Source of the DNA: Palleronia pontilimi
GTDB lineage: Bacteria > Pseudomonadota > Alphaproteobacteria > Rhodobacterales > Rhodobacteraceae
Reading direction: 5' to 3'
DNA length: 64,000 bases
Assembly (NCBI RefSeq): GCF_016412875.1
Contig: NZ_JAEKPD010000007.1
Location: forward strand, 1 to 64,000
Shown: positions 38,155 through 51,260 of the stretch, one piece after another
Layout of the letters: each line of letters opens with the position of its first letter
Numbering within the stretch: position 1 is the first letter of the stretch
Made by a program: the position numbers and the translations under genes
Notes under the pieces: model-generated
What the model was told of the DNA's origin: nothing
The model's database searches: none
What the model saw: only the letters and a program-made list of their open reading frames with translations

Positions 38155-38631
38155 ATGACCAACCGTCGAAACTTTCTCTTTGGCCTCGGGGGCTTTGCCC
38201 TTGTGGCTGCCACCGGGCCCGTTCGCGCCGCCGCGCCGACCGCCCTGCATGTCCTGTCCACGCCCGGCTGCGGCTGCTGCCATGCCTGGGCCGACCTGGC
38301 GCGGGCGCTCGGCTACGCCGTCACCGTCGAGGACCTGAGCGACCCGGACGCGCAGAAGGCGGCGCTGGGCGTGCCCGCGGACCTCGTGTCCTGCCATACG
38401 GTCAAGGGCGATGGCTACGTCTTCGAGGGCCACGTGCCCTTCGAGGCGGTGGAGGCGGTCTTGCGCGACCGGCCCGACATCACCGGTCTGGCCGTGCCCG
38501 GCATGCCCATGGGCTCGCCCGGCATGGGCGACGACCCCACCGCGCGGTTCGACGTGATCGCCTTCGGCGGCGCGGCGGGTGCGGGGGCGGTCTTCTACCG
38601 CGCGGGCACGCCGCGGCCCTTCGCCGTCTGA
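38155..38631 (+). CDS. DUF411 metal-binding protein
   Basis: Protein of 158 residues with a Tat-like signal (MTNRRNFLFGLGGFALVAA) and the DUF411 core: LHVLSTPGCGCCHAWADLARALGYAVTVED, VPADLVSCHTVKGDGYVFEGHVPFEAVEAVL and GLAVPGMPMGSPGM. DUF411 proteins occur in copper and silver resistance loci; the C-x-C-C cluster and Met-rich end are candidate ligands. It acts in the periplasm. The following 222 bases to the next gene contain no convincing gene. Confidence 0.85.
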   Translation: MTNRRNFLFGLGGFALVAATGPVRAAAPTALHVLSTPGCGCCHAWADLARALGYAVTVEDLSDPDAQKAALGVPADLVSCHTVKGDGYVFEGHVPFEAVEAVLRDRPDITGLAVPGMPMGSPGMGDDPTARFDVIAFGGAAGAGAVFYRAGTPRPFAV

Positions 38632-40530: not shown

Positions 40531-41685
40531 TCAGCTTGCCGCCGCCAGCGACTTCTTCGGATCGAAGAACGGGATCGGGACCACCGTGCAGGCGCGAGTC
40601 TCGCTCAGCTTGTCGACGGTCAGTTCGGTGCCCGGCTCGGCCTGGTCCGACGCGATCATGGCCAGCGCGATGTTCTTTTCCAGTCGCGGTGAATAGATCG
40701 CGGACGTGACCGTGCCCACCTGTTTGCCGTCGGCCAGGATCGGCCAGAAGAAATCGTTCGAGCCCACGAAAGGCTCGCCCTCGATCTCGACGCCCACGAG
40801 CTTTTGCTTCACGCCCTTCTCGCTGATCCGGCGCAGCGCGTCCTTGCTGACGAAATCCGCCTCCATGTCCAGATCGACCAGGCGCCCGAGCCCCAGCTCG
40901 TAGGGGTTGTTGGCCAGGTTCATGTCGGCGTGGTAGGACAGCATCCCCGCCTCGATCCGGCGGATGCTCGAGGTGTGGCCGGGCTTCAGGCCCAGGGGCG
41001 CGCCCACCTTCATCAGGTGTTCCCACAGCCGGTCGCCCGCGCTGCTGTCGCGCAGGAAGATCTCGTATCCCAGCTCGCTCGACCAGCCGGTGCGCGAGAT
41101 GATGAGCGGCACGCCGTCCCAGTCGTATTCCATGAACCGGTAGTATTTCAGATCGGGCGGCCCTTCGCCGAAAGCCGCGCGCAACACGTCGCGGGACTTG
41201 GGGCCCTGCAATTGCAGCGGCGAGACATCGGGTTCCGAGATCTCGACATCCATGCCGGAATTGACCGCAAGACCGCGGGCCCAGAGCAGCACGTCGCTGT
41301 CGGCGATGGACAGCCAGAAATGGTCTTCCGCCAGCTTCAGCAGGATCGGGTCGTTGATGATGCCGCCGTGCTGATCGGTGATCAGGATATACTTGCACTG
41401 GCCGACCTCGGTTTTCGACAGGTCGCGGCAGCTGAGATACTGGGTGAACTTCGCGGCGTCAGGGCCCTTGATCTCGACCTGGCGTTCCACCGACACGTCG
41501 CACAGGATCGCGTCGTTGACGAGGTTCCAGAAGTTCTGGGCCGGGTCGCCGAAATCGCGCGGGATATACATGTGGTTATAGACCGAGAAGCCCTTGGCCC
41601 CCCAACGCAGCGCCGCATCCGAGTAGGGCGACTTGCGCACCTGCGTGCCGAAGCTGAACTGGGCGAATTCGAGTTCGTGTGCCAT
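40531..41685 (-). CDS. DmdA/GcvT-like folate-dependent methyltransferase
   Basis: Protein of 384 residues from the ATG at 41685 (ACTGGAAA precedes). It follows the plan of DMSP demethylase DmdA and other aminomethyltransferase-fold enzymes: FSVYNHMYIPRDFGDPAQNFWNLVNDAILCDVSVERQVEIKGPDAAKF, LWLS-type SIADSDVLLWARGLAV, EPDVSPLQLQGPKSRDVL, a glycine-rich GWSSELGYEIF and a C-terminal barrel (GTVTSAIYSPRLEKNIALAMI). It should move a methyl group from a methylated amine or sulfonium to tetrahydrofolate. It diverges from true DmdA at several positions I recall, so the substrate is open. Last gene of the operon. Confidence 0.82.
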   Translation of the reverse strand: MAHELEFAQFSFGTQVRKSPYSDAALRWGAKGFSVYNHMYIPRDFGDPAQNFWNLVNDAILCDVSVERQVEIKGPDAAKFTQYLSCRDLSKTEVGQCKYILITDQHGGIINDPILLKLAEDHFWLSIADSDVLLWARGLAVNSGMDVEISEPDVSPLQLQGPKSRDVLRAAFGEGPPDLKYYRFMEYDWDGVPLIISRTGWSSELGYEIFLRDSSAGDRLWEHLMKVGAPLGLKPGHTSSIRRIEAGMLSYHADMNLANNPYELGLGRLVDLDMEADFVSKDALRRISEKGVKQKLVGVEIEGEPFVGSNDFFWPILADGKQVGTVTSAIYSPRLEKNIALAMIASDQAEPGTELTVDKLSETRACTVVPIPFFDPKKSLAAAS

Positions 41686-41714
41686 TTTCCAGTGTCCAAT
41701 CGTAGGGGGGAGTG

Positions 41715-43325
41715 TCAGCCGGTCTGGCGGACCAGGTCCCGAAGTTCGTTCTTGCGTATCTTGCCGGTGCTGGTCTTCGGAAGCTCTCCGAAGATGATCT
41801 TCTTGGGCCGCTGGAATCCCGCCAGGCGGGCCTTCGCGTGATCGAGCAATTCCTGTTCCGTAGCCTCGCCGGACAGCTCGATGAAGGCGCAGGGAACTTC
41901 GCCCCATTTCTCGTCGGGCATCGCCACGACGGCGACCATGTTGACGGCGGGGTGGGAATAGAGCGCCTTTTCCACCTCGATCGACGATATGTTCTCGCCG
42001 CCCGAGATGATGATGTCCTTCGAGCGGTCGCGGATCTCGATGTAGCCGTCGGGGTGCTGCACGGCCAGATCGCCGGACCAGAACCAGCCGTCCCGGAACG
42101 CCTTGGCGGTCTCGTCGGGGGCCTTCAGGTAGCCCTTCATCACAATGTTGCCGCGGAACACGATCTCGCCCAGCGTGTCGCCGTCCCAGGGGACCGGCTG
42201 GCCGCTTTCGGGATCCAGCACCAGCACGTCCTCTTCCAGCTCGTAGGCGACGCCCTGCCGCGCCTTCAGCTCGGCCTGTTCGGCCACGGGGCGGTCCGAC
42301 CAGTCGGGCTTTTCGGCGCAGACCACGGCCGGGCCGTAGACTTCGGTCAGCCCGTAGACATGGGTGACCGAGATGCCCATCGCCTCCATCTTGCCGATCA
42401 CGCTGGCGGGCGGCGGAGCGGCGGCGGTCATCATCTTGATCTTCTGCGGGAAGTCGCGCTTCGTCTCGGCCCCCGCGATCATCGACATGATGATCGGCGC
42501 GCCGCAGAGATGCGTGACGCCGTGATCGGCGAAGGCGTCGTAGATCGCGTCGGCGCGGGGCGCGCGCAGGAAGACATGGGTGCCCGCCAGAAGGGTGATC
42601 GTCCAGGGAAAACACCAGCCGTTGCAGTGAAACAGCGGCAAGGTCCACAGATAGACGGGATAATGCGGCATCTCCCACGTCACCACGTTGTTGACCGCGT
42701 TCATCCAGGCGCCGCGATGCGAATAGACCACGCCCTTGGGACGGCCCGTCGTGCCGGACGTGTAGTTCAGCGCCAGCGAATCCCATTCGTCGTCGGGCAG
42801 GGTGTAGGCGAAACCGGGATCGCCTTCGGCAAGAAGCGCGTCGTAGGTCAGCGCGCCGATCCGCGTGCCGCCGGGGCCTTCGGGATCCTCGATATCGACG
42901 ACCAGCAGATCGCGGCCCGACTTCTCGATGGCGTCGCGCGCAAGGTCCGAGAGTTCGGTATCGACCAGAAGCACCTTCGCCTCGCCGTGCTCCAGGATAT
43001 AGGCGATGGTATCGGCGTCGAGCCGCGTGTTGTTGGCGTTCAGCACCGCGCCCAGCATGGGGATGGCCAGCGCGCATTCCAGGGCTTCGGGGATGTTGGG
43101 CGCGATCAGCGCGACCGTGTCGCCCTTGCCCACGCCGCGCGCCGCCAGCGCCGAGGCAAGCCGCTTGCACCTTTCGGCCACCTCGCCCCAGTTGCGGCGG
43201 ATGGATCCGTGGATCTGGGCGGGCAGTTCGGGATGCACCCGCTCCACGTGCTTCAGGATCGATACCGGCGACAGGGCCGTGTGATTGGCGCCATTGCGCG
43301 CCAGTTCGGGACCGTTGAAATTCAT
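41715..43325 (-). CDS. Acyl-CoA synthetase (AMP-forming)
   Basis: Protein of 536 residues. The ATG at 43325 overlaps the crotonase stop by four bases. ANL motifs are LNYTSGTTGRPKGVVYSHRG (AMP binding), YGLTEVYGPAV, WFWSGDLAVQHPDGYIEIRDRSKDIIISGGENISSIEVE and the C-terminal lysine region KTSTGKIRKNELR. It resembles medium-chain and DmdB-like (methylmercaptopropionate) CoA ligases. With DmdA-like and SBP56-like partners it may activate a short thio- or carboxylic acid; the acid is not determined by the sequence I can read. Confidence 0.88.
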   Translation of the reverse strand: MNFNGPELARNGANHTALSPVSILKHVERVHPELPAQIHGSIRRNWGEVAERCKRLASALAARGVGKGDTVALIAPNIPEALECALAIPMLGAVLNANNTRLDADTIAYILEHGEAKVLLVDTELSDLARDAIEKSGRDLLVVDIEDPEGPGGTRIGALTYDALLAEGDPGFAYTLPDDEWDSLALNYTSGTTGRPKGVVYSHRGAWMNAVNNVVTWEMPHYPVYLWTLPLFHCNGWCFPWTITLLAGTHVFLRAPRADAIYDAFADHGVTHLCGAPIIMSMIAGAETKRDFPQKIKMMTAAAPPPASVIGKMEAMGISVTHVYGLTEVYGPAVVCAEKPDWSDRPVAEQAELKARQGVAYELEEDVLVLDPESGQPVPWDGDTLGEIVFRGNIVMKGYLKAPDETAKAFRDGWFWSGDLAVQHPDGYIEIRDRSKDIIISGGENISSIEVEKALYSHPAVNMVAVVAMPDEKWGEVPCAFIELSGEATEQELLDHAKARLAGFQRPKKIIFGELPKTSTGKIRKNELRDLVRQTG

Positions 43326-44140
43326 TCCCCGGCCCATTCCGGCATCGCTTCCTTGCGGGTGAACGCGCCGATCCCGGCCTCGGCATCGCGGGCCATCATG
43401 TTGTCGGCCATGGTGCGTCCGGCGAAGGCGTAGGCGTCTTCCAGCGGCATCTCGAGCTGCTCGTAGAAGGCGCGCTTGCCGATCTTGACGGCGGCGGGCG
43501 ACTTGTCGGCGATGGTGCGGGCCATCTGCATCGCGGCAGCTTCCAGCCCGTCCAGCGGCACGACCCGGTTCACCAGCCCCATTTCGGCCACGCGGGCGGC
43601 GGGCAGGAAGTCGCCCAGCAGCAGCATCTCCATCGCCAGCTTGCGCGGCACGTTGCGGCTGAGGGCCACCATGGGGGTCGAGCAGAACAGGCCGATATTG
43701 ACGCCCGACGTGGCGAATTTCGCATCCTCGGACGCCACGGCCAGGTCGCAGGACGCGACCAGCTGGCAGCCCGCGGCGGTGGCGATGCCGCGCACCTCGG
43801 CGATGACGGGTTGCGGCAGGCGGACCACGCGCAGCATCATCGCCGAGCACTTGGCGAAAAGATCCTGGAAATACTGGTACCCCCCGTCGGCATCGGCGCG
43901 ACGGGCGGTCATTTCCTTGAGATTGTGACCGGCGCAGAAATGCGCGCCGCCGCTGCGCAGGATCACCGCCTTGACGCTGCGATCCGCCGCGATCGTGTCG
44001 AGCGTGTCGGACAGCGCGCCCAGCATCGCCTCGGACAGGGCGTTGATGGATTTCGGGGCATTCAGCGTCAGAACCGCGATGCCGTCCGCATCGCTGCGCA
44101 GCAACAGTTCGTCGGTGATCGGGGTGCCGTCATGGCCCAT
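43322..44140 (-). CDS. ECHDC3-type crotonase-fold protein without catalytic Glu
   Basis: Protein of 272 residues of the enoyl-CoA hydratase family, with the oxyanion-hole segments HFCAGHNLKEM and GIATAAGCQLVASCDLAVAS. The two Glu that act in hydratases are replaced: Gln126 in AAGCQ and Gly146 in FATSGVNIG. The pattern GCQLVASCDLAVASxxxxFATxGVNxGLFCSTP matches the ECHDC3 branch. It may therefore bind an acyl-CoA or catalyse another reaction rather than hydrate. GGACGACAAG precedes the ATG; the next gene overlaps its stop. Confidence 0.88.
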   Translation of the reverse strand: MGHDGTPITDELLLRSDADGIAVLTLNAPKSINALSEAMLGALSDTLDTIAADRSVKAVILRSGGAHFCAGHNLKEMTARRADADGGYQYFQDLFAKCSAMMLRVVRLPQPVIAEVRGIATAAGCQLVASCDLAVASEDAKFATSGVNIGLFCSTPMVALSRNVPRKLAMEMLLLGDFLPAARVAEMGLVNRVVPLDGLEAAAMQMARTIADKSPAAVKIGKRAFYEQLEMPLEDAYAFAGRTMADNMMARDAEAGIGAFTRKEAMPEWAGE

Positions 44141-44167
44141 CTTGTCGTCCTTCTGCTGGGCGTCGCG

Positions 44168-44557
44168 TCAGATCAACGTGCCGCCGGCCTTCTTCCACGC
44201 GGCCACGCCGCCCGCCATGTTGACCACCGGCGACAGGCCCATGTCCATCGCCGATCTCGCCGCCAGGGCCGACCGTCCGCCCGAGGCGCAATAGAACACG
44301 TAGGTCTTGTCCTGGTTGAATGCCGGTTTGTGGGCCGGGCTGTCGGGGTCGATGTGAAACTCGACCATCCCGCGCGACGACGCGATGGCGCCCGCGATCA
44401 TGCCGGTTTTTTCCTGCTCGGCCCCGTCGCGCAGATCCACGAAGACGTGGTCGGGCGAGCCCTGCAGCGCCAGCGCCTCGTCGGCGGTGATGTTCTGCAC
44501 CTCGGCCATGGCCGCTTTCACGATCTCTTGCGCGCTTTTCGAAATGGTCTGGGGCAT
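44168..44557 (-). CDS. Single-domain rhodanese
   Basis: Protein of 129 residues from the ATG at 44557, chosen because AAAGGATGAAGACC precedes it; an ATG nine bases upstream is also open. One rhodanese domain with VFVDLRDGAEQEK, the persulfide-forming Cys90 in YVFYCASGGRSALAA and the C-terminal VVNMAGGVAAWKKAGG. It carries sulfane sulfur. In the operon it could pass on or detoxify sulfide or persulfide formed by the SBP56-like enzyme; that is inference. Confidence 0.88.
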   Translation of the reverse strand: MPQTISKSAQEIVKAAMAEVQNITADEALALQGSPDHVFVDLRDGAEQEKTGMIAGAIASSRGMVEFHIDPDSPAHKPAFNQDKTYVFYCASGGRSALAARSAMDMGLSPVVNMAGGVAAWKKAGGTLI

Positions 44558-44597
44558 GGTCTTCATCCTTTGCCAGGGCGGCGCGTGGCCGCCCGCG

Positions 44598-45062
44598 TCA
44601 TATGGTCAGGTCCAGTCGCGGCTTCCAGAACGGGCGGAACAGCTCGATCTTGGGGCAGCGGTTCATCACCACCTTCAATCCCGCATCCTCGGCCAGCTTC
44701 GCGGCCCGGTCGTCATAGACCCCGATCTGCGCCCACAGCACCTTCGCCCCGATGGCGATCGCCTTCTCGGCGATGCCGTAAAGCTCTTCCTTGGGGCGGA
44801 ACACTTCCACCATGTCCACGGGGCGGTCGATCGATTCCAGCGACGGATAGACGGGGATGCCGCGGATTTCGGTGACCGCCGGGTTCGGGTTCACCGGGAT
44901 CATGTCGTAGCCCGTCTCGTGCAGCACCCGCAGCACGCCGTAGCTGAACTTCGTCTTGTCGGCGCTGGCCCCCACCATGGCGATGGTCTTCACCGATTTC
45001 AGGATCTCGGCCAGGTATTTTTGGTCGTAGTCGTACAGGTCGTCGATGGCGACAGCGGGCAT
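44598..45062 (-). CDS. CoA-binding Rossmann protein
   Basis: Protein of 154 residues. The ATG at 45062 follows GGGAGGTGTGACC; a GTG six bases upstream is also open. The fold is CoA_binding_2 (YccU-like): SVKTIAMVGASADKTKFSYGVLRVLHETGYDMIPVNPN and VDMVEVFRPKEELYGIAEKAI, then LWAQIGVYDDRAAKLAEDAGLKVVMNRCPKIE. These proteins bind CoA; their physiological role is unclear. It begins two bases after the ferredoxin stop region, so the genes are tightly coupled. Confidence 0.87.
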   Translation of the reverse strand: MPAVAIDDLYDYDQKYLAEILKSVKTIAMVGASADKTKFSYGVLRVLHETGYDMIPVNPNPAVTEIRGIPVYPSLESIDRPVDMVEVFRPKEELYGIAEKAIAIGAKVLWAQIGVYDDRAAKLAEDAGLKVVMNRCPKIELFRPFWKPRLDLTI

Positions 45063-45064
45063 GG

Positions 45065-45433
45065 TCACACCTCCCTGGGGGTAGCGATATCCGCCTTCAG
45101 CTCGTGCGGCTCAAGCGGATTGAGAAACGGATTGCGGTAGAGCTTGTCGTGGCTTTCGACGCCGATCTCCAGCGTGCAGTCGGTCACGGCGCGCGCCACG
45201 CAAAGCAGCACGTAGCCGTTGTTGATCTGCCGGTTGTTCAGCGCCGTCTGGCGGCGTTGATCGACCTCGCCATCGACCAGCTTGGCCGCGCAGGTGATGC
45301 AGCCGCCGTATTTGCAGCCATAGGGCAGATCGACACCCTGTTCGCGCAGCGTGTCCAGCAGCGGGCGGCGCGCTTCGACGCGGTAGGTCGCGCCGTCGCG
45401 ATTGGCGAGCGTTATGGTCCGCGTCCCGGTCAC
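45065..45433 (-). CDS. 2Fe-2S plant-type ferredoxin
   Basis: Protein of 122 residues starting with GTG at 45433, which overlaps the SBP56 stop by four bases (GTGA). Cluster ligands are C40, C45, C48 and C78 in LPYGCKYGGCITC...YVLLC. It should carry electrons to or from the SBP56-like enzyme or the crotonase/CoA partners. A dedicated ferredoxin fused into an SBP56 operon is unusual to my knowledge. Confidence 0.87.
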   Translation of the reverse strand: MTGTRTITLANRDGATYRVEARRPLLDTLREQGVDLPYGCKYGGCITCAAKLVDGEVDQRRQTALNNRQINNGYVLLCVARAVTDCTLEIGVESHDKLYRNPFLNPLEPHELKADIATPREV

Positions 45434-46785
45434 AGCCAGATGTCGCTGGTGCAATCGCCGCCCGGATAACGCGATTCGTGGCAGCGCGAGGGGCCGTTCG
45501 GTTCCTGCCCGAAATCGACGATGAAGTCCGGGTTGATCGTCATGCCGCCGTTTTCCACGTCGCAGTCGATCATCACCATGACCCCGCCCTGGGTCCGGAT
45601 CTCGGGGTAGAACTGGTTGTCCCAGGTGGAAAACAGCGATGTGGTGACGTAAAGCCGCTTGCCGTCGAGGCTCAGCTGGTACATCTGCGGCCCGCCCGCG
45701 ACCTTGACGCCGTTGATCTCGGGCGCGCGGCCCAGCAGCCCGCCCATCCAGACCTGCCCCGTCAGCTTGGGGTTGTGCGGATCGGTGATGTCGTACTGGC
45801 GCATGTCGCCGTGCAGCCAGTTGTTGAGGTACAGGTACTTGTCGTCCATCGACACCAGCACCGCCGACATCACGCCCGGCACCGGGATCGGCCATTCGGG
45901 ATGCGGCTCGTTCTCGACGTCGATGACCTTCTCCCATTCCCATTTGCCGGCCTCGGACTTCCAGAAATGGATGACGTTGGCGCTGAGCGCCGCGCCGCAG
46001 AAGCCGTGGCTGCTGTCGGGATCGTGCAGGAATTTCACCTCGAGCGGGATCAATCCGTCCTCGCCCAGATACATGGTCTCGACCGGCTTCTTGGCCTCGA
46101 AATCCCAGATATGCAGACGGCGGCCGTATTTCAGGTGGCCCACCTCTTCCAGGTCGAAGCCAGGCATGAAGGTGTTGGGCGCGGCCCATTCCGAGCTCAC
46201 CATCACGTTGTGGCGCGGCTGGTACCAGAAATCGTAGCTGAACGGGATGTCGCCCATGGACGCTTCCCAGCGGCCCATGATCTCGAAGTCCTTGTTCAGG
46301 TGCAGATAGCCGCCCGGGGCTTCGCCCTTGGCGTCACCCAGGAACGAGATGATGATCTCGGAGCCCAGGCAATGCACCGTGTGCGGGCCGCTCAGATCCG
46401 CCTTCGACTTGATCTCGGCGCCCTCGATCACCTTGTGCAGACGCGGTGCGCGCGGGTCGGTGGCGGTGTCCACGATATGGATGTTGTTGGATCGCACGCC
46501 GGGCACCAGCAGGTATTTCCGGCTCATCCCCGCGTCGTCGTGACAGGACGAGCAGGCGTTCCAGCCCATGTGGTGCAGCTCGTCGCCGATGCCGGGCATT
46601 TCCAGCCGGTGGATGACCTGGCTGTAGGTCGGGCTGTCGGGATCCACGTCGATCGTCGCCAGGTAGTCGGGCTTCTGGATGCCCGTCCCGGTATAGATCG
46701 CGATGGTGTAAAGCAGCTTCTCGCGCGGGGCCTTGATGGCCGCTGCGGGACTTGCGTAGCCCGGTCCGCAACAGGTCTTGTCCAT
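45430..46785 (-). CDS. SBP56/methanethiol oxidase-like protein (MtoX family)
   Basis: Protein of 451 residues, the full length of selenium-binding protein 56. Conserved blocks are HHMGWNACSSCHDDAGMSRKYLLVPG (Cys78, Cys81), YDFWYQPRHNVMVSSEWAAPN, DGLIPLEVKFLHDPD, LYLNNWLHGDMRQYDI, VAGGPQMYQLSLDGKRLYVTTSLFS and the C-terminal RYPGGDCTSDIWL. Bacterial MtoX oxidises methanethiol to formaldehyde, sulfide and peroxide. It has no signal peptide, unlike periplasmic MtoX, so it is probably cytosolic. First gene of the seven-gene operon. Confidence 0.88.
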   Translation of the reverse strand: MDKTCCGPGYASPAAAIKAPREKLLYTIAIYTGTGIQKPDYLATIDVDPDSPTYSQVIHRLEMPGIGDELHHMGWNACSSCHDDAGMSRKYLLVPGVRSNNIHIVDTATDPRAPRLHKVIEGAEIKSKADLSGPHTVHCLGSEIIISFLGDAKGEAPGGYLHLNKDFEIMGRWEASMGDIPFSYDFWYQPRHNVMVSSEWAAPNTFMPGFDLEEVGHLKYGRRLHIWDFEAKKPVETMYLGEDGLIPLEVKFLHDPDSSHGFCGAALSANVIHFWKSEAGKWEWEKVIDVENEPHPEWPIPVPGVMSAVLVSMDDKYLYLNNWLHGDMRQYDITDPHNPKLTGQVWMGGLLGRAPEINGVKVAGGPQMYQLSLDGKRLYVTTSLFSTWDNQFYPEIRTQGGVMVMIDCDVENGGMTINPDFIVDFGQEPNGPSRCHESRYPGGDCTSDIWL

Positions 46786-46857: not shown

Positions 46858-47619
46858 ATGCATCTGGAACGTCTGATCCGCATTCTCGAGGTCGTCGGCG
46901 ATGCGGACGACTCGACCGTGGCGGAGATCTGCGACCGCGCCGGTCTGCCGAAGCCGACCGCGTATCGGCTGGTGCAGGACCTGGCGGGTGCGGGCCTCTT
47001 GGAGCCGGTGTCGCGCGGCCGCTTCGCCATCGGCGCGCGGCTGAAGCGGATCGTGCACGGCGCGCAGTCCGACCGGGCGCTTCTGGCGGTGGTGGGGCCG
47101 GTCCTGAAGGCCGCCGCGACCGAGCATGGCGCGGCCTTCTTCCTGTCGCGCCTGCGCGGCAAGGCGGTCGAGATCATCCGGGTCGAGACCCCCGACACCG
47201 GCGTGTCCTACCTGCATCCGGGCCTTGGCAAGCGGCCCATGCATGCCTGTTCCTGCGCCAAGGCCATCGCCGCGCATTCGCCGGGGCTGTTCGCCACGGA
47301 CGACATGGCGGGCCGCCTGCGCGCCTATACCGAGTTCACGGTGACCGATGCCGATGACCTGCAGGCCGAGTTCGCGGCGATCCGCCAACGGGGCTACGCC
47401 GAATGCGTGGAGGAAATCGAGCGCGGCCTGTGTTCCGTCGCGGCGCCCCTCGCGCCGGGCGGTCCGGGGGCCACCATGTCCATCGGCGCGACCGGGTCGA
47501 CGCGGGTCTTCACCCCCGAATTCCGGGCCGAGCTCGGGCTTCGCATCACCGCGATCGCGCAGGACCTGGCGACCCGGATGGGCTGGGATACCGCTTCGGA
47601 TGCGAAGGCCGCGGGCTGA
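46858..47619 (+). CDS. IclR-family transcriptional regulator
   Basis: Protein of 253 residues; AAGGTGAAATC precedes the ATG. The N-terminal winged helix reads ERLIRILEVVGDADDSTVAEICDRAGLPKPTAYRLVQDLAGAGLL; the C-terminal effector domain contains YLHPGLGKRPMHACSCAKAIAAHSPGLF and RGYAECVEEIERGLCSVAAPLAPGG. IclR proteins sense small organic acids. It lies back to back with the SBP56 operon and ahead of the PhnD-type importer, so it may govern both. The 227 bases after it hold no gene. Confidence 0.9.
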   Translation: MHLERLIRILEVVGDADDSTVAEICDRAGLPKPTAYRLVQDLAGAGLLEPVSRGRFAIGARLKRIVHGAQSDRALLAVVGPVLKAAATEHGAAFFLSRLRGKAVEIIRVETPDTGVSYLHPGLGKRPMHACSCAKAIAAHSPGLFATDDMAGRLRAYTEFTVTDADDLQAEFAAIRQRGYAECVEEIERGLCSVAAPLAPGGPGATMSIGATGSTRVFTPEFRAELGLRITAIAQDLATRMGWDTASDAKAAG

Positions 47620-47846
47620 CGACGCGCCGCCCGCTTGACGCCTGACCCTTCGGTCCGCCATGGCGGCTTTCCGGAAGCCGGACTTTCACCGCCTTGCTAT
47701 CCCCCCTTCGGGCCAGGCCTGCCGGAGCGCATGTCGCCCGTTCTCCGGCGCTTGTTGCAAATCCCGCCGTTCGGTGTTGTCATCCCGCCGACTGCGGCGC
47801 CATGGTGGCCGCGGACAAGTTTGATCCACTGGGAGGAGGACATTCG

Positions 47847-48824
47847 ATGCCAGGACTTTCAACATACGGAACGGCGCTGCTTGCGGCGATCACCCTGACC
47901 GCGGGCGCGGCTTTCGCGCAAGACGCCGAGACCGCCGCTCTGGACAGCCAGTACACGGACGCCGATGGTGACCTGGTCGCCGACGCGCCCGAGGACGAAA
48001 GCCAGCTGCGCGATCCCGACACGCTCGTCTTCGCCTATACCCCGGTCGAGGATCCGGCGATCTACGAAGACATCTGGACCCCGTTCATCGAGCACCTGGA
48101 AGAGGTCACCGGCAAGGACGTGCAGTTCTTCGCCGTGCAGTCGAACTCGGCCGAGGTCGAGGCCATGCGCTCGGGCCGCCTGCACATCGCGGGCTTCTCC
48201 ACCGGGCCCACGCCCTTCGCGGTGAACCTTGCCGGTGCCGTGCCCTTCGCGATCATGGGATCCGAAGACGGGCAGTTCGGCTACAAGCTGCAGGTCTATA
48301 CCCAGGCCGACAGCGACATCCAGGAAGTGGCCGACATGGCGGGCAAGCGCATCGCGCACACCTCGCCCACGTCGAATTCGGGCAACCAGGCGCCGCGCGC
48401 GCTGTTCCCGGATCTGGGCGTCGTCCCGGACGAGGATTACGAGGTGACGTATTCCGGCAGCCACGACCAGTCGATGCTGGGCGTCGTCGCGGGCGATTAC
48501 GACGCGGCGCCGGTGGCGTCCGAAGTGGTCGACCGGATGGCGGAACGCGGCCTGTTCGATCCGGCGGAAGTGCGCATCGTCTGGGAAAGCGACCCGTTCC
48601 CGACCACGTCCTACACCTATGCCCACGACCTGACGCCCGAGCTGAAAGACGCCATCGAAGAAGCCTTCTTCAGCTTCGATTTCGCGGGCACCGAGCTGGG
48701 CGAGGAATTCACCGGTGTCAGCAAGTTCATCCCCATCACCTACAAGGATCAGTGGAAGGTCATCCGCCAGATCCAGCGCGCCAACGGGGTCGAATACACG
48801 CCGCAGGGACTCGCGGCGGAATAA
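47847..48824 (+). CDS. phnD: PhnD-family phosphonate-type periplasmic binding protein
   Basis: Protein of 325 residues; the ATG at 47847 follows gggaggagga. Signal peptide (TALLAAITLTAGAAFAQ), then an acidic Asp/Glu-rich linker, and the PhnD fold: LVFAYTPVEDPAIYEDIWTPFIEHLEEVTGKDVQFFAVQSNSAEVEAMRSGRLHIAGFSTGPTPFAVN, HTSPTSNSGNQAPRALF and YSGSHDQSMLGVVAGDYDAAPVASEV. The family binds phosphonates, phosphite or phosphate esters. The ligand here is not certain; the acidic N-terminal linker is somewhat unusual. Confidence 0.87.
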   Translation: MPGLSTYGTALLAAITLTAGAAFAQDAETAALDSQYTDADGDLVADAPEDESQLRDPDTLVFAYTPVEDPAIYEDIWTPFIEHLEEVTGKDVQFFAVQSNSAEVEAMRSGRLHIAGFSTGPTPFAVNLAGAVPFAIMGSEDGQFGYKLQVYTQADSDIQEVADMAGKRIAHTSPTSNSGNQAPRALFPDLGVVPDEDYEVTYSGSHDQSMLGVVAGDYDAAPVASEVVDRMAERGLFDPAEVRIVWESDPFPTTSYTYAHDLTPELKDAIEEAFFSFDFAGTELGEEFTGVSKFIPITYKDQWKVIRQIQRANGVEYTPQGLAAE

Positions 48825-48883
48825 TCCGCAACGGATCGGGGATCGGCGCCCGCGCGCCGGTCCCTCGTCGGGGGAGCACGCGG

Positions 48884-49663
48884 ATGTTGAAGATAACCGA
48901 CCTGGTCAAACGCTACGGCAGCGGCGGTGACCCGGTTCTGAAGAACCTGGACCTGACCATCGAAGGCGAAAGCGTCGTGTCGATCATCGGATCGTCCGGC
49001 GCGGGCAAGTCCACCCTGCTGCGCTGCATCAACCGGCTGGTCGAGCCGACTTCCGGCAGCATCGTGCTGAACGGGACCGAGCTGACGAAGCTCAGCGGCA
49101 GCAATCTGCGCGCGGCGCGCCGCAAGATCGGCATGGTGTTCCAGGGCTTCAACCTGGTCGAGCGGCTGACGGTGATGGAAAACGTGCAATCCGGGCGGCT
49201 TGGCTACATCTCGACCTGGGCCGCGATCACGCGCCGCTATCCCAAGCAGGACATCCGCCGCGCCTACGAGCTGATGGAGCGCGTGGGCATCGCCCATTAC
49301 GCCAACACCCGCGCCGACCAGCTGTCGGGCGGCGAGCGGCAGCGCGTGGGCGTCGTGCGCGCGCTGATGCAGGATCCCGACATCCTTCTGGCCGACGAGC
49401 CGACCGCATCGCTGGACCCCAAGACGTCCGAGCAGATCATGGGCCTGCTGCGCGATCTTGCGGGCGAGCTGAAGCTGCCGGTGCTGATCAACATCCACAA
49501 CGTGACCGAGGCCAAGGAATACACCGACCGGATCGTGGGGATGCGCTACGGGCGGATCATCTTCGACGACCTGCCCGAAAAGCTGGACCAGGACGCCATG
49601 GACCGGATCTATTCCGGCAGTCCGCACGCCGATCGCGGCGAAGATCCGGTGGCCGCCCAATGA
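48884..49663 (+). CDS. phnC: PhnC-type ABC transporter ATP-binding protein
   Basis: Protein of 259 residues from the ATG at 48884. Walker A GSSGAGKST (residues 36-44), LSGGERQRVG signature and Walker B ILLADEPTASLD are complete, with NIHNVTEAKEYTDRIVGMRYGRIIFDDLPE typical of PhnC. It powers the import complex with the binding protein and two permeases. Its stop overlaps the first permease ATG by four bases. Confidence 0.92.
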   Translation: MLKITDLVKRYGSGGDPVLKNLDLTIEGESVVSIIGSSGAGKSTLLRCINRLVEPTSGSIVLNGTELTKLSGSNLRAARRKIGMVFQGFNLVERLTVMENVQSGRLGYISTWAAITRRYPKQDIRRAYELMERVGIAHYANTRADQLSGGERQRVGVVRALMQDPDILLADEPTASLDPKTSEQIMGLLRDLAGELKLPVLINIHNVTEAKEYTDRIVGMRYGRIIFDDLPEKLDQDAMDRIYSGSPHADRGEDPVAAQ

Positions 49664-50454
49664 GCGATCATCCCGACACCTGGAGCCGCCCGCCCTTCAT
49701 CGCCAACCCGTGGCTGCGCTGGGCCGTCTATATCGGCACCACCGCCTACGTGATCTGGGTCGTCGCGACGATCCCCATCGACTGGGTGCGCGTGTCCGAC
49801 GGCATCGGGCGCGCGGGGCGCATCTTCGGCGGCGCCTTCCCGCCCAGCTTCGAGCGCAGCAGCCTGCTGATCGACGGCTTCCTGGAAAGCATCAAGATCG
49901 CCGTGCTGGCGACCGCGGGCGGCGTGGCGCTGTCCATTCCCATCGCCTTCATGGCCGCAAGGAACGTCGCCCCGCGACCGATCTTCTACCTGGGCCGCGC
50001 CATCATCATCGTCGCGCGCAGCTTCCACCCGGTGATCGTGGCGATCATCTTCGTCAAGGCCGTGGGTTTCGGCCCCTTCGCGGGTGTCCTGACGCTGATC
50101 GTCTATTCCGTGGGCTTCGTCGCCAAGATGCTGGCCGAACGCATCGAGGAAATCGACTTCGGCCAGGTCGAGGCCCTGCGCGCCGCCGGAGCGCCCTATT
50201 TCTCGACGCTGTTCTACGCGATCTTCCCGCAGATCATGCCGCGCCAGATCGGTCTGACGATCTACCAGCTCGATTCGAACCTGCGGGCCTCGGCCGTGGT
50301 CGGGATCGTCGGGGCAGGGGGCATCGGCGCGACGCTGGCCAACGCCTTCGGGCGCTACGATTACGACTTCGCGCTGGCGATCACGATCGTCATCGTGGCC
50401 GTGATCCTCGTCTCCGAAGGGGTCAGCGGCTACATCAGGAAGCGGGTGGCATGA
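49660..50454 (+). CDS. phnE: PhnE-type ABC transporter permease 1
   Basis: Protein of 264 residues with about six transmembrane helices and the PhnE motif AERIEEIDFGQVEALRAAGAPYFSTLFYAIFPQIMPR, which contacts the ATPase, followed by LDSNLRASAVVGIVGAGGIG. It overlaps the genes on both sides by four bases. With the second permease it should form a heterodimer. Confidence 0.9.
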   Translation: MSDHPDTWSRPPFIANPWLRWAVYIGTTAYVIWVVATIPIDWVRVSDGIGRAGRIFGGAFPPSFERSSLLIDGFLESIKIAVLATAGGVALSIPIAFMAARNVAPRPIFYLGRAIIIVARSFHPVIVAIIFVKAVGFGPFAGVLTLIVYSVGFVAKMLAERIEEIDFGQVEALRAAGAPYFSTLFYAIFPQIMPRQIGLTIYQLDSNLRASAVVGIVGAGGIGATLANAFGRYDYDFALAITIVIVAVILVSEGVSGYIRKRVA

Positions 50455-51260
50455 CCAGCATTTCCGAACAATTCGGGCGCGAGGACTGGTCGCGCCACAC
50501 GCCGAAGCAAAAGGCCCGCCGCTTCCTGATCTTCGCCGTCTGCGCGGCCCTTATCGCCTGGGCGTTGGGCTCGATCGAAGTGGTCTGGGCCTGGGTCTGG
50601 GATTCGCCCGCCCAGATGGGCGACCTCTTCGCGCGCATGTACCCGCCGGACGTGACCAACCTGGGCGCGATTCTGCGGATCCTTCTGGAAACCGTGAACA
50701 TCGCCACCATCGCCACCGCCATCGCGGTCATCCTGTCGCTGCCGGTGGCCTATATCGCCGCGCAGAACACCACGCCGAACCGCGCGACCCTGTGGCTGGG
50801 GCGGCTGATCCTGGTCACGTCGCGGTCGGTCAACACGATCATCTGGGCGCTGCTCTTCGTGGCGATCTTCGGCCCCGGCGTGCTGGCCGGCATCGTGGCG
50901 ATCATGTTCCGCTCCATCGGCTTCATCGGCAAACTGCTGGGCGAGGCGATCGAGGAAATCGACAAGCGCCCGGTCGAGGCGCTCGAGGCGACGGGCGCGT
51001 CCCGCTTCCAGGTCATCGCCTATGCCATCGTCCCCCAGGTGATGCCCACCTTCTGGGCGGTGTCGATCCTGCGCTGGGACATCAACCTGCGCGAGTCCAC
51101 TGTGTTGGGGCTGGTGGGCGCGGGGGGCATCGGCATCATCCTGCAAGGCGCCATCGACACGTTCAACTGGCCCGAAGCCGCGACCGTGCTGATCGCGATC
51201 CTGGCGCTGGTGATCCTGGGCGAGATCGTGTCGGCCTTCCTGCGCCGCCGCATCCTGTGA
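50451..51260 (+). CDS. phnE: PhnE-type ABC transporter permease 2
   Basis: Protein of 269 residues starting at ATG 50451. Six or so transmembrane helices and the ATPase-contact loop GEAIEEIDKRPVEALEATGASRFQVIAYAIVPQVMP, then WDINLRESTVLGLVGAGGIGIIL. It pairs with the preceding permease. Its stop overlaps the GTG start of the HAD hydrolase. Confidence 0.9.
   Translation: MTSISEQFGREDWSRHTPKQKARRFLIFAVCAALIAWALGSIEVVWAWVWDSPAQMGDLFARMYPPDVTNLGAILRILLETVNIATIATAIAVILSLPVAYIAAQNTTPNRATLWLGRLILVTSRSVNTIIWALLFVAIFGPGVLAGIVAIMFRSIGFIGKLLGEAIEEIDKRPVEALEATGASRFQVIAYAIVPQVMPTFWAVSILRWDINLRESTVLGLVGAGGIGIILQGAIDTFNWPEAATVLIAILALVILGEIVSAFLRRRIL

Follow-up and report, generated by a model that had tools for sequence, protein, structure and literature searches.

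Genetic organization of the operon

The stretch of DNA analysed here, hereafter the window, comprises 64,000 nucleotides of Palleronia pontilimi (positions 1 to 64,000 of contig NZ_JAEKPD010000007.1, assembly GCF_016412875.1) and contains a seven-gene operon on the minus strand at positions 40531-46785. In the order S-F-C-R-E-A-D, its products join an SBP56-family protein to a methyltransferase related to DmdA, the demethylase of dimethylsulfoniopropionate (DMSP), and to several CoA enzymes. An earlier note made from the sequence alone had described these genes, and profile matches and open reading frame (ORF) positions showed that their number, strand, place, coordinates and names had been given accurately. 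Families were assigned with Pfam and NCBIfam profiles, as follows:

45430..46785, minus strand: S, SBP56-family protein of the cytosolic type, candidate methanethiol oxidase (PF05694, 685 bits)
45065..45433, minus strand: F, 2Fe-2S ferredoxin (PF00111, 60 bits; Cys motif recognized by eye)
44598..45062, minus strand: C, small CoA-binding protein, CoA_binding_2 (PF13380, 129.5 bits)
44168..44566, minus strand: R, single-domain rhodanese with the active-site loop CASGGRS, recognized by eye (PF00581, 59.6 bits)
43322..44140, minus strand: E, ECHDC3-type crotonase without either hydratase glutamate (NF006008, 391 bits; PDB 3myb and 2vx2)
41715..43325, minus strand: A, acyl-CoA synthetase of the PRK08162 subfamily (NF006020, 822 bits, cut-off 677)
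40531..41685, minus strand: D, GcvT/DmdA-like tetrahydrofolate (THF)-dependent methyltransferase (PF01571 and PF08669; nearest PDB entry 3tfh, DmdA)
46858..47619, plus strand: I, divergent IclR-family regulator, probable regulator of the operon (PF01614 and PF09339, scored on a version 7 residues shorter)

The operon is compact. S and F overlap by 4 bases, with the GTG start of F overlapping the stop codon of S, and E and A by 4 bases (ATGA), and gaps of 2, 31, 27 and 29 bases separate F from C, C from R, R from E and A from D. For F, C, A and D, the start codons were chosen by us, the listed ORFs beginning further upstream. The ferredoxin scored 77.4 against TIGR02008, just below the cut-off of 81.15. 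The start of the divergent IclR gene (46858) lies 72 bases from S, and a promoter and terminator scan returned nothing above chance.

Distribution and gene arrangements in related genomes

The operon is real and recurrent in marine Alphaproteobacteria. Loci were collected by searching for peptide patterns taken from the D of the window, which over-represents near relatives; the sample comprised 135 stretches and 125 relatives, of which the best 80 were kept and 7 with less than 60% identity dropped, giving 73 loci. S and D occurred in one co-directional run in 20 of these 73 loci, and S lay within 8 kb of D in 24 (D at least 60% identical). Within that distance of D, E was found in 40 loci, A in 37, C in 26, an IclR gene in 25, F in 24 and R in 14. 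Full-length matches in the 20 S+D runs were 87-94% identical for S, 80-92% for F, 81-92% for C and 79-88% for D (20 loci each), with 69-79% for R (12 loci), 80-87% for E (18) and 84-88% for A (16). The linkage of the seven genes exceeds chance, and rearranged versions exist elsewhere. The earlier note had held that a failure of these genes to co-occur in other genomes would speak against its reading; they do co-occur, in these 20 runs and, as a set, on the plasmid pP30_b described below.

Among 149 genomes of the family, S (at least 67% identity) was detected in 21 and D (at least 61%) in 24, with both in 11 against 3.4 expected (p 2.5e-5), and S or S2, a second SBP56 type, in 49, of which 19 also carried D against 7.9 expected (p 4.7e-7), in Fisher tests that ignore relatedness and use hand-compiled genome lists including fragmentary matches (e.g., G037, G056 and G014). 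Another DmdA-like gene with less than 50% identity is carried by 20 of the 21 S genomes. At the phylum level, S is rare, occurring in 5 of 398 genomes at an E-value of 1e-150 or better, its own genome being one of the five.

Based on gene order, two main arrangements can be distinguished. Type I, S-F-C-(R)-E-A-D, is the commonest full order, and several type I loci have no R. Type II, Lrp-D-OsmC-E-A, occurs in Leisingera, Maritimibacter, Salibaculum, Fodinicurvata and others, with all five genes in 8 loci, and the D-OsmC-E-A loci are mostly alphaproteobacterial. Locus L143 has S-F-C-R-SDO-Lrp-D-OsmC-E-A in a single direction, the sulfur dioxygenase (SDO) being split over two frames, L144 has Lrp-D-OsmC-E-A followed by S2, and L146 has S-F-C-R-D with no E or A. 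The order D-C-E-A was found in all seven D-clade loci inspected in Porticoccaceae (L116, L235-L239 and L246), where the C of L239 was scored as a CoA_binding_2 protein. D-E-A is thus a separable core and the one shared most widely. C accompanies both halves, and in Rhodobacterales and a few others the core is joined by S-F; the S-linked members are found at several separate places of the D tree. In 16 S-type stretches that were fetched, F lay beside S in 15 and C beside S in 14. Two of the S loci have other genes upstream: in L148:3430-10816, S-F-C-R comes after a histidinol-dehydrogenase-like gene, a short-chain dehydrogenase/reductase gene and a zinc alcohol dehydrogenase gene, a set which we take to resemble that for dihydroxypropanesulfonate breakdown, and in L149:1-3765 the genes immediately before S-F-C encode a GcvT-like protein, truncated at the contig end, and an HpcH/HpaI-type lyase.

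Named strains with the operon are Roseovarius albus CECT 7450, Cribrihabitans marinus DSM 29340 and Phaeobacter inhibens P30. In the latter, an IclR gene with S-F-C-R-MBL-E-A-D (S 92.7% and D 87.8% identical) is found on plasmid pP30_b, which PLSDB types as conjugative and which also has Lrp-D-OsmC-E-A about 9 kb from this type I set. The type II operon of pP30_b (L209:3247-9975) is located between two tyrosine recombinase genes of 633 bases each on opposite strands, and no repeats of at least 100 bases were found around this cassette.

The SBP56-family protein and the possible handling of sulfide

S has no signal peptide (by eye) and four of its histidines (H71, H72, H135 and H436) are shared with S2, with the MtoX of L195 and with PDB 2ece; all four are kept in every covering row of 42 S-type sequences and in 13 of 13 of the S2 type. 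They fit the copper ligands His89, His90, His140 and His412, named for methanethiol oxidase (MTO) in the available part of PMC5739008, by their order, not by alignment with that protein. S aligns at 27-32% with the classical MtoX of G075, whose locus (L195) is a textbook-looking IclR-mtoX-SCO1-mauG operon (ORFs by eye) with a signal peptide, likewise by eye. Against the NCBIfam MtoX model NF052453, this control scored 751 and S only 157, for a cut-off of 650; the S2 of the same genome as S reached 116 and is not MtoX either. Identity of S with MtoX was rejected on this score, the missing signal peptide and the absence of neighbouring SCO1/SenC and MauG genes. The earlier note's SBP56/methanethiol-oxidase-like label holds for the family but not for MtoX. 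Since S keeps the four histidines, has no signal peptide and fails the MtoX model, it is proposed to be a cytosolic methanethiol oxidase of another subfamily.

The S2 gene of P. pontilimi (G000:C64:224941-226293, L160) adjoins genes for a GSDH-family protein, a cytochrome c and a small protein without Pfam match. In a table in the accessible portion of PMC10203303, two genes with consecutive numbers, one for a ferredoxin and one for a selenium-binding protein, are both given as more highly expressed in one NAC11-7 species; that this pair corresponds to F and S is a guess.

In some relatives, a full-length gene resembling Blh-type sulfur dioxygenases lies between R and E (L063, L066, L067 and L086), and such a gene also follows R in pP30_b and, over two frames, in L143. 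The product of L066 matched 293 positions of the fused Blh model of NCBIfam with 365 bits, below the full-length cut-off of 625. The other Blh-type genes, detected by tblastn, were 79-100% identical, and the MBL gene of pP30_b was 99.7% identical to that of L066. For L070 and L093, an SDO label resting on 33 residues was not counted as a gene. The operon of the window contains the rhodanese gene and no dioxygenase gene. The presence of a Blh-type gene beside the rhodanese in relatives fits an oxidation of released thiol and sulfide.

The DmdA/GcvT-like protein

The predicted model of D (pLDDT 89.8, with one true DmdA among the 24 alignment rows) has the three-domain GcvT/DmdA fold. Pelagibacter DmdA 3tfh is its nearest solved protein by sequence and also the best PDB match in a fold search (TM 0.91/0.94, against 0.85-0.87/0.90-0.92 for GcvT), a result that favours kinship with DmdA but no particular substrate. 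The earlier note had called D DmdA-like, which is correct for the fold and the nearest structure but does not extend to membership in the clade of the solved DmdA. D scored 382 against the NCBIfam DmdA model NF009133 (cut-off 410), with 374-378 for other members of its clade, against 656 for the canonical DmdA of the same genome and 638 for that of G066; in the latter genome, the S2 match starts 114 bases after the DmdA match. In a quick tree with long branches flagged, the D clade (65 rows, support 99) lies outside the DmdA clade that contains 3tfh (10 rows, support 100). The motif R-S-G-[YW]-S-K-Q-G-G-[FY]-E of DmdA (3tfh 194-204; 23 DmdA rows) reads R-T-G-W-S-S-E-L-G-Y-E in the D clade, where KQG is absent. 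Duplicates and rows with stops were dropped from the sequences (137 to 130). In the alignment, D and DmdA are set apart as groups by 70 columns and have 109 in common, some of these columns being absent from 3tfh. The earlier note had suggested placing D in trees with verified DmdA, and would have given way to a clade with a different proven substrate; D falls outside the solved-DmdA clade, and no D-clade member with such a substrate was found. The folate-binding fold is present in the predicted model of D, and its substrate is one that we infer.

The neighbours of D homologues bear on that substrate. On a Lichenihabitans plasmid, a homologue with 55% identity adjoins genes for methylenetetrahydrofolate reductase (MTHFR), folD and purU, as expected if the product of D were 5-methyl-THF. 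With one ORF in between, a homocysteine S-methyltransferase gene lies upstream of D in L105 and a MetE-like gene (52 bits) in L094, a sulfur context that speaks in favour of a sulfur substrate.

The distance of D from solved DmdAs can be compared with that of other demethylases. According to the available part of PMC10746254, a dmdA mutant is complemented by SAR92 DmdAs whose identity to the two ratified DmdAs is only 37.9-40.2% and 34.6-39.0%. As these proteins function at about 38-40% identity to the DmdA of R. pomeroyi, low identity alone does not exclude DMSP as a substrate. In Porticoccaceae, the D-like genes form two groups, 54-68% and 44-47% identical to D, and no dmdA-acuH-dmdB-dmdC cluster was found in the stretches taken; one of these groups, or neither, may correspond to the complementing SAR92 DmdA. 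In L248, L250 and L255, also from Porticoccaceae, genes of another DmdA-like group (43-44% identical to D) precede a synthetase gene, whose product is 51% identical to A in L248 and L250, and a gene for a different crotonase.

The CoA enzymes

E passes the ECHDC3/PRK08139 model NF006008 (cut-off 313), and its closest structures, 3myb and human ECHDC3 2vx2, have in common with it the signature ATAAGCQLVA...GLFCSTP. Opposite the two glutamates of the canonical relative 4k29, at what we take to be the catalytic hydratase positions, E has Q126 and G146, and these residues, like H72, C125 and C153, show at least 97% invariance in 49 E-like sequences. The lack of these glutamates led to the rejection of E as DmdD or enoyl-CoA hydratase, and E should be neither an ordinary hydratase nor DmdD. 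An E121A mutant of DmdD is mentioned in the available part of PMC5395565.

A scored 286 against the DmdB model NF005426, for a cut-off of 822. None of 13 hits in the genome of P. pontilimi exceeded this cut-off, so that the model may not cover roseobacter DmdB. The same genome has two acyl-CoA dehydrogenase hits with PF12806, presumably the DmdC-type domain, one of them on the contig of the operon. The earlier note's remark that DmdC is missing is right for the operon itself, which has no acyl-CoA dehydrogenase gene. It does not follow that the operon encodes DmdB and DmdD with DmdC left out, since A fails the DmdB model and E is without hydratase glutamates.

These enzymes also bear on the idea that D represents an unrecognised clade of true DMSP demethylases, with the DmdB, DmdC and DmdD or AcuH steps encoded elsewhere and S serving as the methanethiol oxidase of strains without MtoX. 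The closeness of D to 3tfh by sequence and predicted fold would agree with this idea, as would the PF12806 gene on the same contig and the complementing SAR92 DmdAs, which stand at about the distance of D. So would Ruegeria lacuscaerulensis, which has no mtoX and two other SBP56-family genes according to the part of Wirth et al. (PMC7157515) available to us. Yet the genome already has a canonical DmdA (C7) adjoining two BCCT transporters, D is without the KQG motif and an ECHDC3-type E is unfit for the role of DmdD or AcuH, which makes this explanation quite improbable.

A proposed pathway and its alternatives

Taken together, the operon may serve to demethylate a small methylated sulfur acid in a THF-dependent way and to degrade it through CoA-dependent steps, the released methanethiol, a malodorous gas, being oxidised in the cytosol, a reading to which we give an even chance. 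The substrate, probably of algal origin, would be DMSP or a close sulfonium or methylthio relative. D would move a methyl group to THF and A would make the CoA thioester, on which E would act through its oxyanion hole, freeing methanethiol. S would then carry out the MTO reaction, in which methanethiol yields formaldehyde, sulfide and peroxide, with F carrying electrons, and R, plus the neighbouring dioxygenase where present, would take sulfide onward. The divergent IclR protein would control the operon. The analysis shows the gene content, its tight linkage and conservation, the histidines kept in S, a folate-binding fold for D and an E without hydratase glutamates; we infer the substrate, the sequence of reactions, their products and what F and C do. 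The earlier note had sketched a pathway of this kind; its outline is strengthened by the co-occurrence of the genes, the linkage of SBP56 and DmdA-like genes in several arrangements and the Blh-type gene beside the rhodanese, but S is not MtoX, D and A stay below the DmdA and DmdB cut-offs and E has no hydratase glutamates.

Several observations weigh against this pathway. Among the 73 loci, D stands in a run without any listed partner in 24 (4 of which have one within 8 kb) and has no S within 8 kb in 49. No SBP56 gene was found in 5 of the 24 family genomes with D, nor in 14 of 15 Porticoccaceae genomes with D, a test covering 15 of the 23 genomes with D at 54-68% identity, for which gene order was read in 7 and completeness figures are absent. 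A sulfonium transporter was not seen as a conserved member of the loci. The SSELGYE motif of D is closer to the trimethylamine N-oxide (TMAO) demethylase (Tdm) domain than to DmdA, and D scores higher than DmdA against the Tdm model (238 against 155), which makes an N-methyl substrate possible. Finally, SAR11-type relatives of D (50-52% identity; L136-L142) adjoin a gene for a dimethylglycine dehydrogenase (DMGDH)-like FAD-GcvT fusion; the fusion gene, whose Pfam assignment comes from L138, precedes the D relative in 6 of 7 of these loci, and a permease-like gene (by eye) follows in 5 of 7.

The presence of D-E-A without SBP56 in 14 of 15 Porticoccaceae genomes means that methanethiol oxidation is not an obligatory part of D-E-A. 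In genomes with D and no SBP56 gene, either methanethiol is assimilated or E-A-D does not make methanethiol. The latter would agree with an operon made of two modules placed together, in which S-F-C(-R) provides a general clean-up of methanethiol and sulfide and E-A-D degrades an N-methylated or other non-sulfur acid, D yielding 5-methyl-THF or methylene-THF from an amine, as its GcvT-fold relatives do. The Porticoccaceae order D-C-E-A, the Tdm-like motif and the SAR11 fusion genes all lend themselves to such a division, as do 13 of the 16 fetched S-type stretches, where S occurs with F and/or C and without a close E, A or D (a count that leaves out crotonase and synthetase matches below 35% and a 50% DmdA-like fragment in L149). 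We nevertheless consider it somewhat unlikely, as the modules have been joined in several arrangements, also through S2, C accompanies both of them, and the genes upstream of D in L105 and L094 belong to a sulfur context. A reading of the operon as one for homarine or another N-methyl betaine is unsupported.

The motif partly shared with the TMAO demethylase domain would also suit a D that acts as a sink for formaldehyde, condensing it with THF like the GcvT domains of demethylating oxidases, with E and A serving an unrelated acid. Formaldehyde is an expected product of S, based on the available part of PMC5739008. As S is missing within 8 kb of D in 49 of 73 loci and D accompanies E and A without S, this role is very unlikely.

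Returning to the breakdown of a methylated sulfur acid, its boldest version is a DmdC-free route. After demethylation by D and thioester formation by A, E would eliminate methanethiol directly, giving acryloyl-CoA or the matching enoyl-CoA, and S would oxidise the thiol on the spot. E has no hydratase glutamates and has an invariant His72 and Cys153. Elimination from a CoA thioester would be in the spirit of DddX, an ATP-dependent DMSP lyase with a CoA-thioester route (available part of PMC8163506). This version is tentative and, in our view, unlikely. If it is true, marine sulfur breakdown would have a new shortcut and the ECHDC3 family its first function.

Neighbouring genes

Downstream of the operon, a gene for an ArsP_1-type permease ends convergently. 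Beyond the IclR gene lies a set of phosphonate-type ABC transporter genes (47694-51260), of which the binding protein (PF12974) and one permease (PF00528) were scored and the ATPase and a second permease recognized by eye. This set was rejected as the transporter of the operon, since other loci have no close match to it beside the operon. A DUF411 gene occurs near the operon (38155-38631) and also near the type II operon on the Phaeobacter plasmid pP51_d (L204:3630-4124), perhaps by chance.

Comparison with known systems and biological meaning

The operon is neither a DmdABCD operon nor an MtoX operon, and no published description of the seven-gene set was found in searches of open-licence papers in PubMed Central. 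Like the DMSP demethylation pathway of marine bacteria (DmdA, DmdB, DmdC, DmdD or AcuH), it combines a THF-methyltransferase of the DmdA/GcvT fold with an acyl-CoA synthetase and a crotonase. In contrast to that pathway, D lies outside the solved-DmdA clade and below the cut-off, A is of the PRK08162 subfamily, E is of the ECHDC3 type and there is no acyl-CoA dehydrogenase. With the MtoX operon of Ruegeria pomeroyi and Hyphomicrobium (IclR, mtoX, SCO1/SenC and mauG), it shares an SBP56 enzyme with the same four histidines and an adjoining IclR gene; unlike MtoX, S has no signal peptide (by eye), and a ferredoxin, a CoA-binding protein and a rhodanese replace SCO1 and MauG. S presumably resembles human SELENBP1 and the cytosolic SBP56 proteins of that type; it is of the cytosolic type as they are but encoded in a bacterial operon with CoA enzymes.

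Sulfide oxidation by Blh and rhodanese has a parallel in the Blh-type dioxygenase-like gene that adjoins the rhodanese gene in five relatives (split over two frames in one) and on pP30_b, whereas the operon of the window has the rhodanese only. As for DddX, the CoA thioester would likewise be made first, after which a sulfur group would leave and acryloyl-CoA form; DddX, however, is an ADP-forming synthetase that releases dimethyl sulfide, whereas the ligase and the crotonase of the operon are separate and demethylation would come first.

To our knowledge, human ECHDC3 is uncharacterised, and the operon offers a test of the function of ECHDC3-type proteins. For roseobacters without MtoX, other SBP56-family genes have been suggested as the methanethiol oxidiser (Wirth et al., PMC7157515, in its available part). 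The operon described here provides a concrete candidate for this oxidase in named strains and links it with genes for a demethylase-like protein, a CoA ligase and a crotonase of the ECHDC3 type. As it is found on a plasmid typed as conjugative in one strain, the trait may move. If the proposed pathway is true, part of the marine flux of methanethiol and DMSP would run through genes that surveys based on dmdABCD and mtoX would miss.

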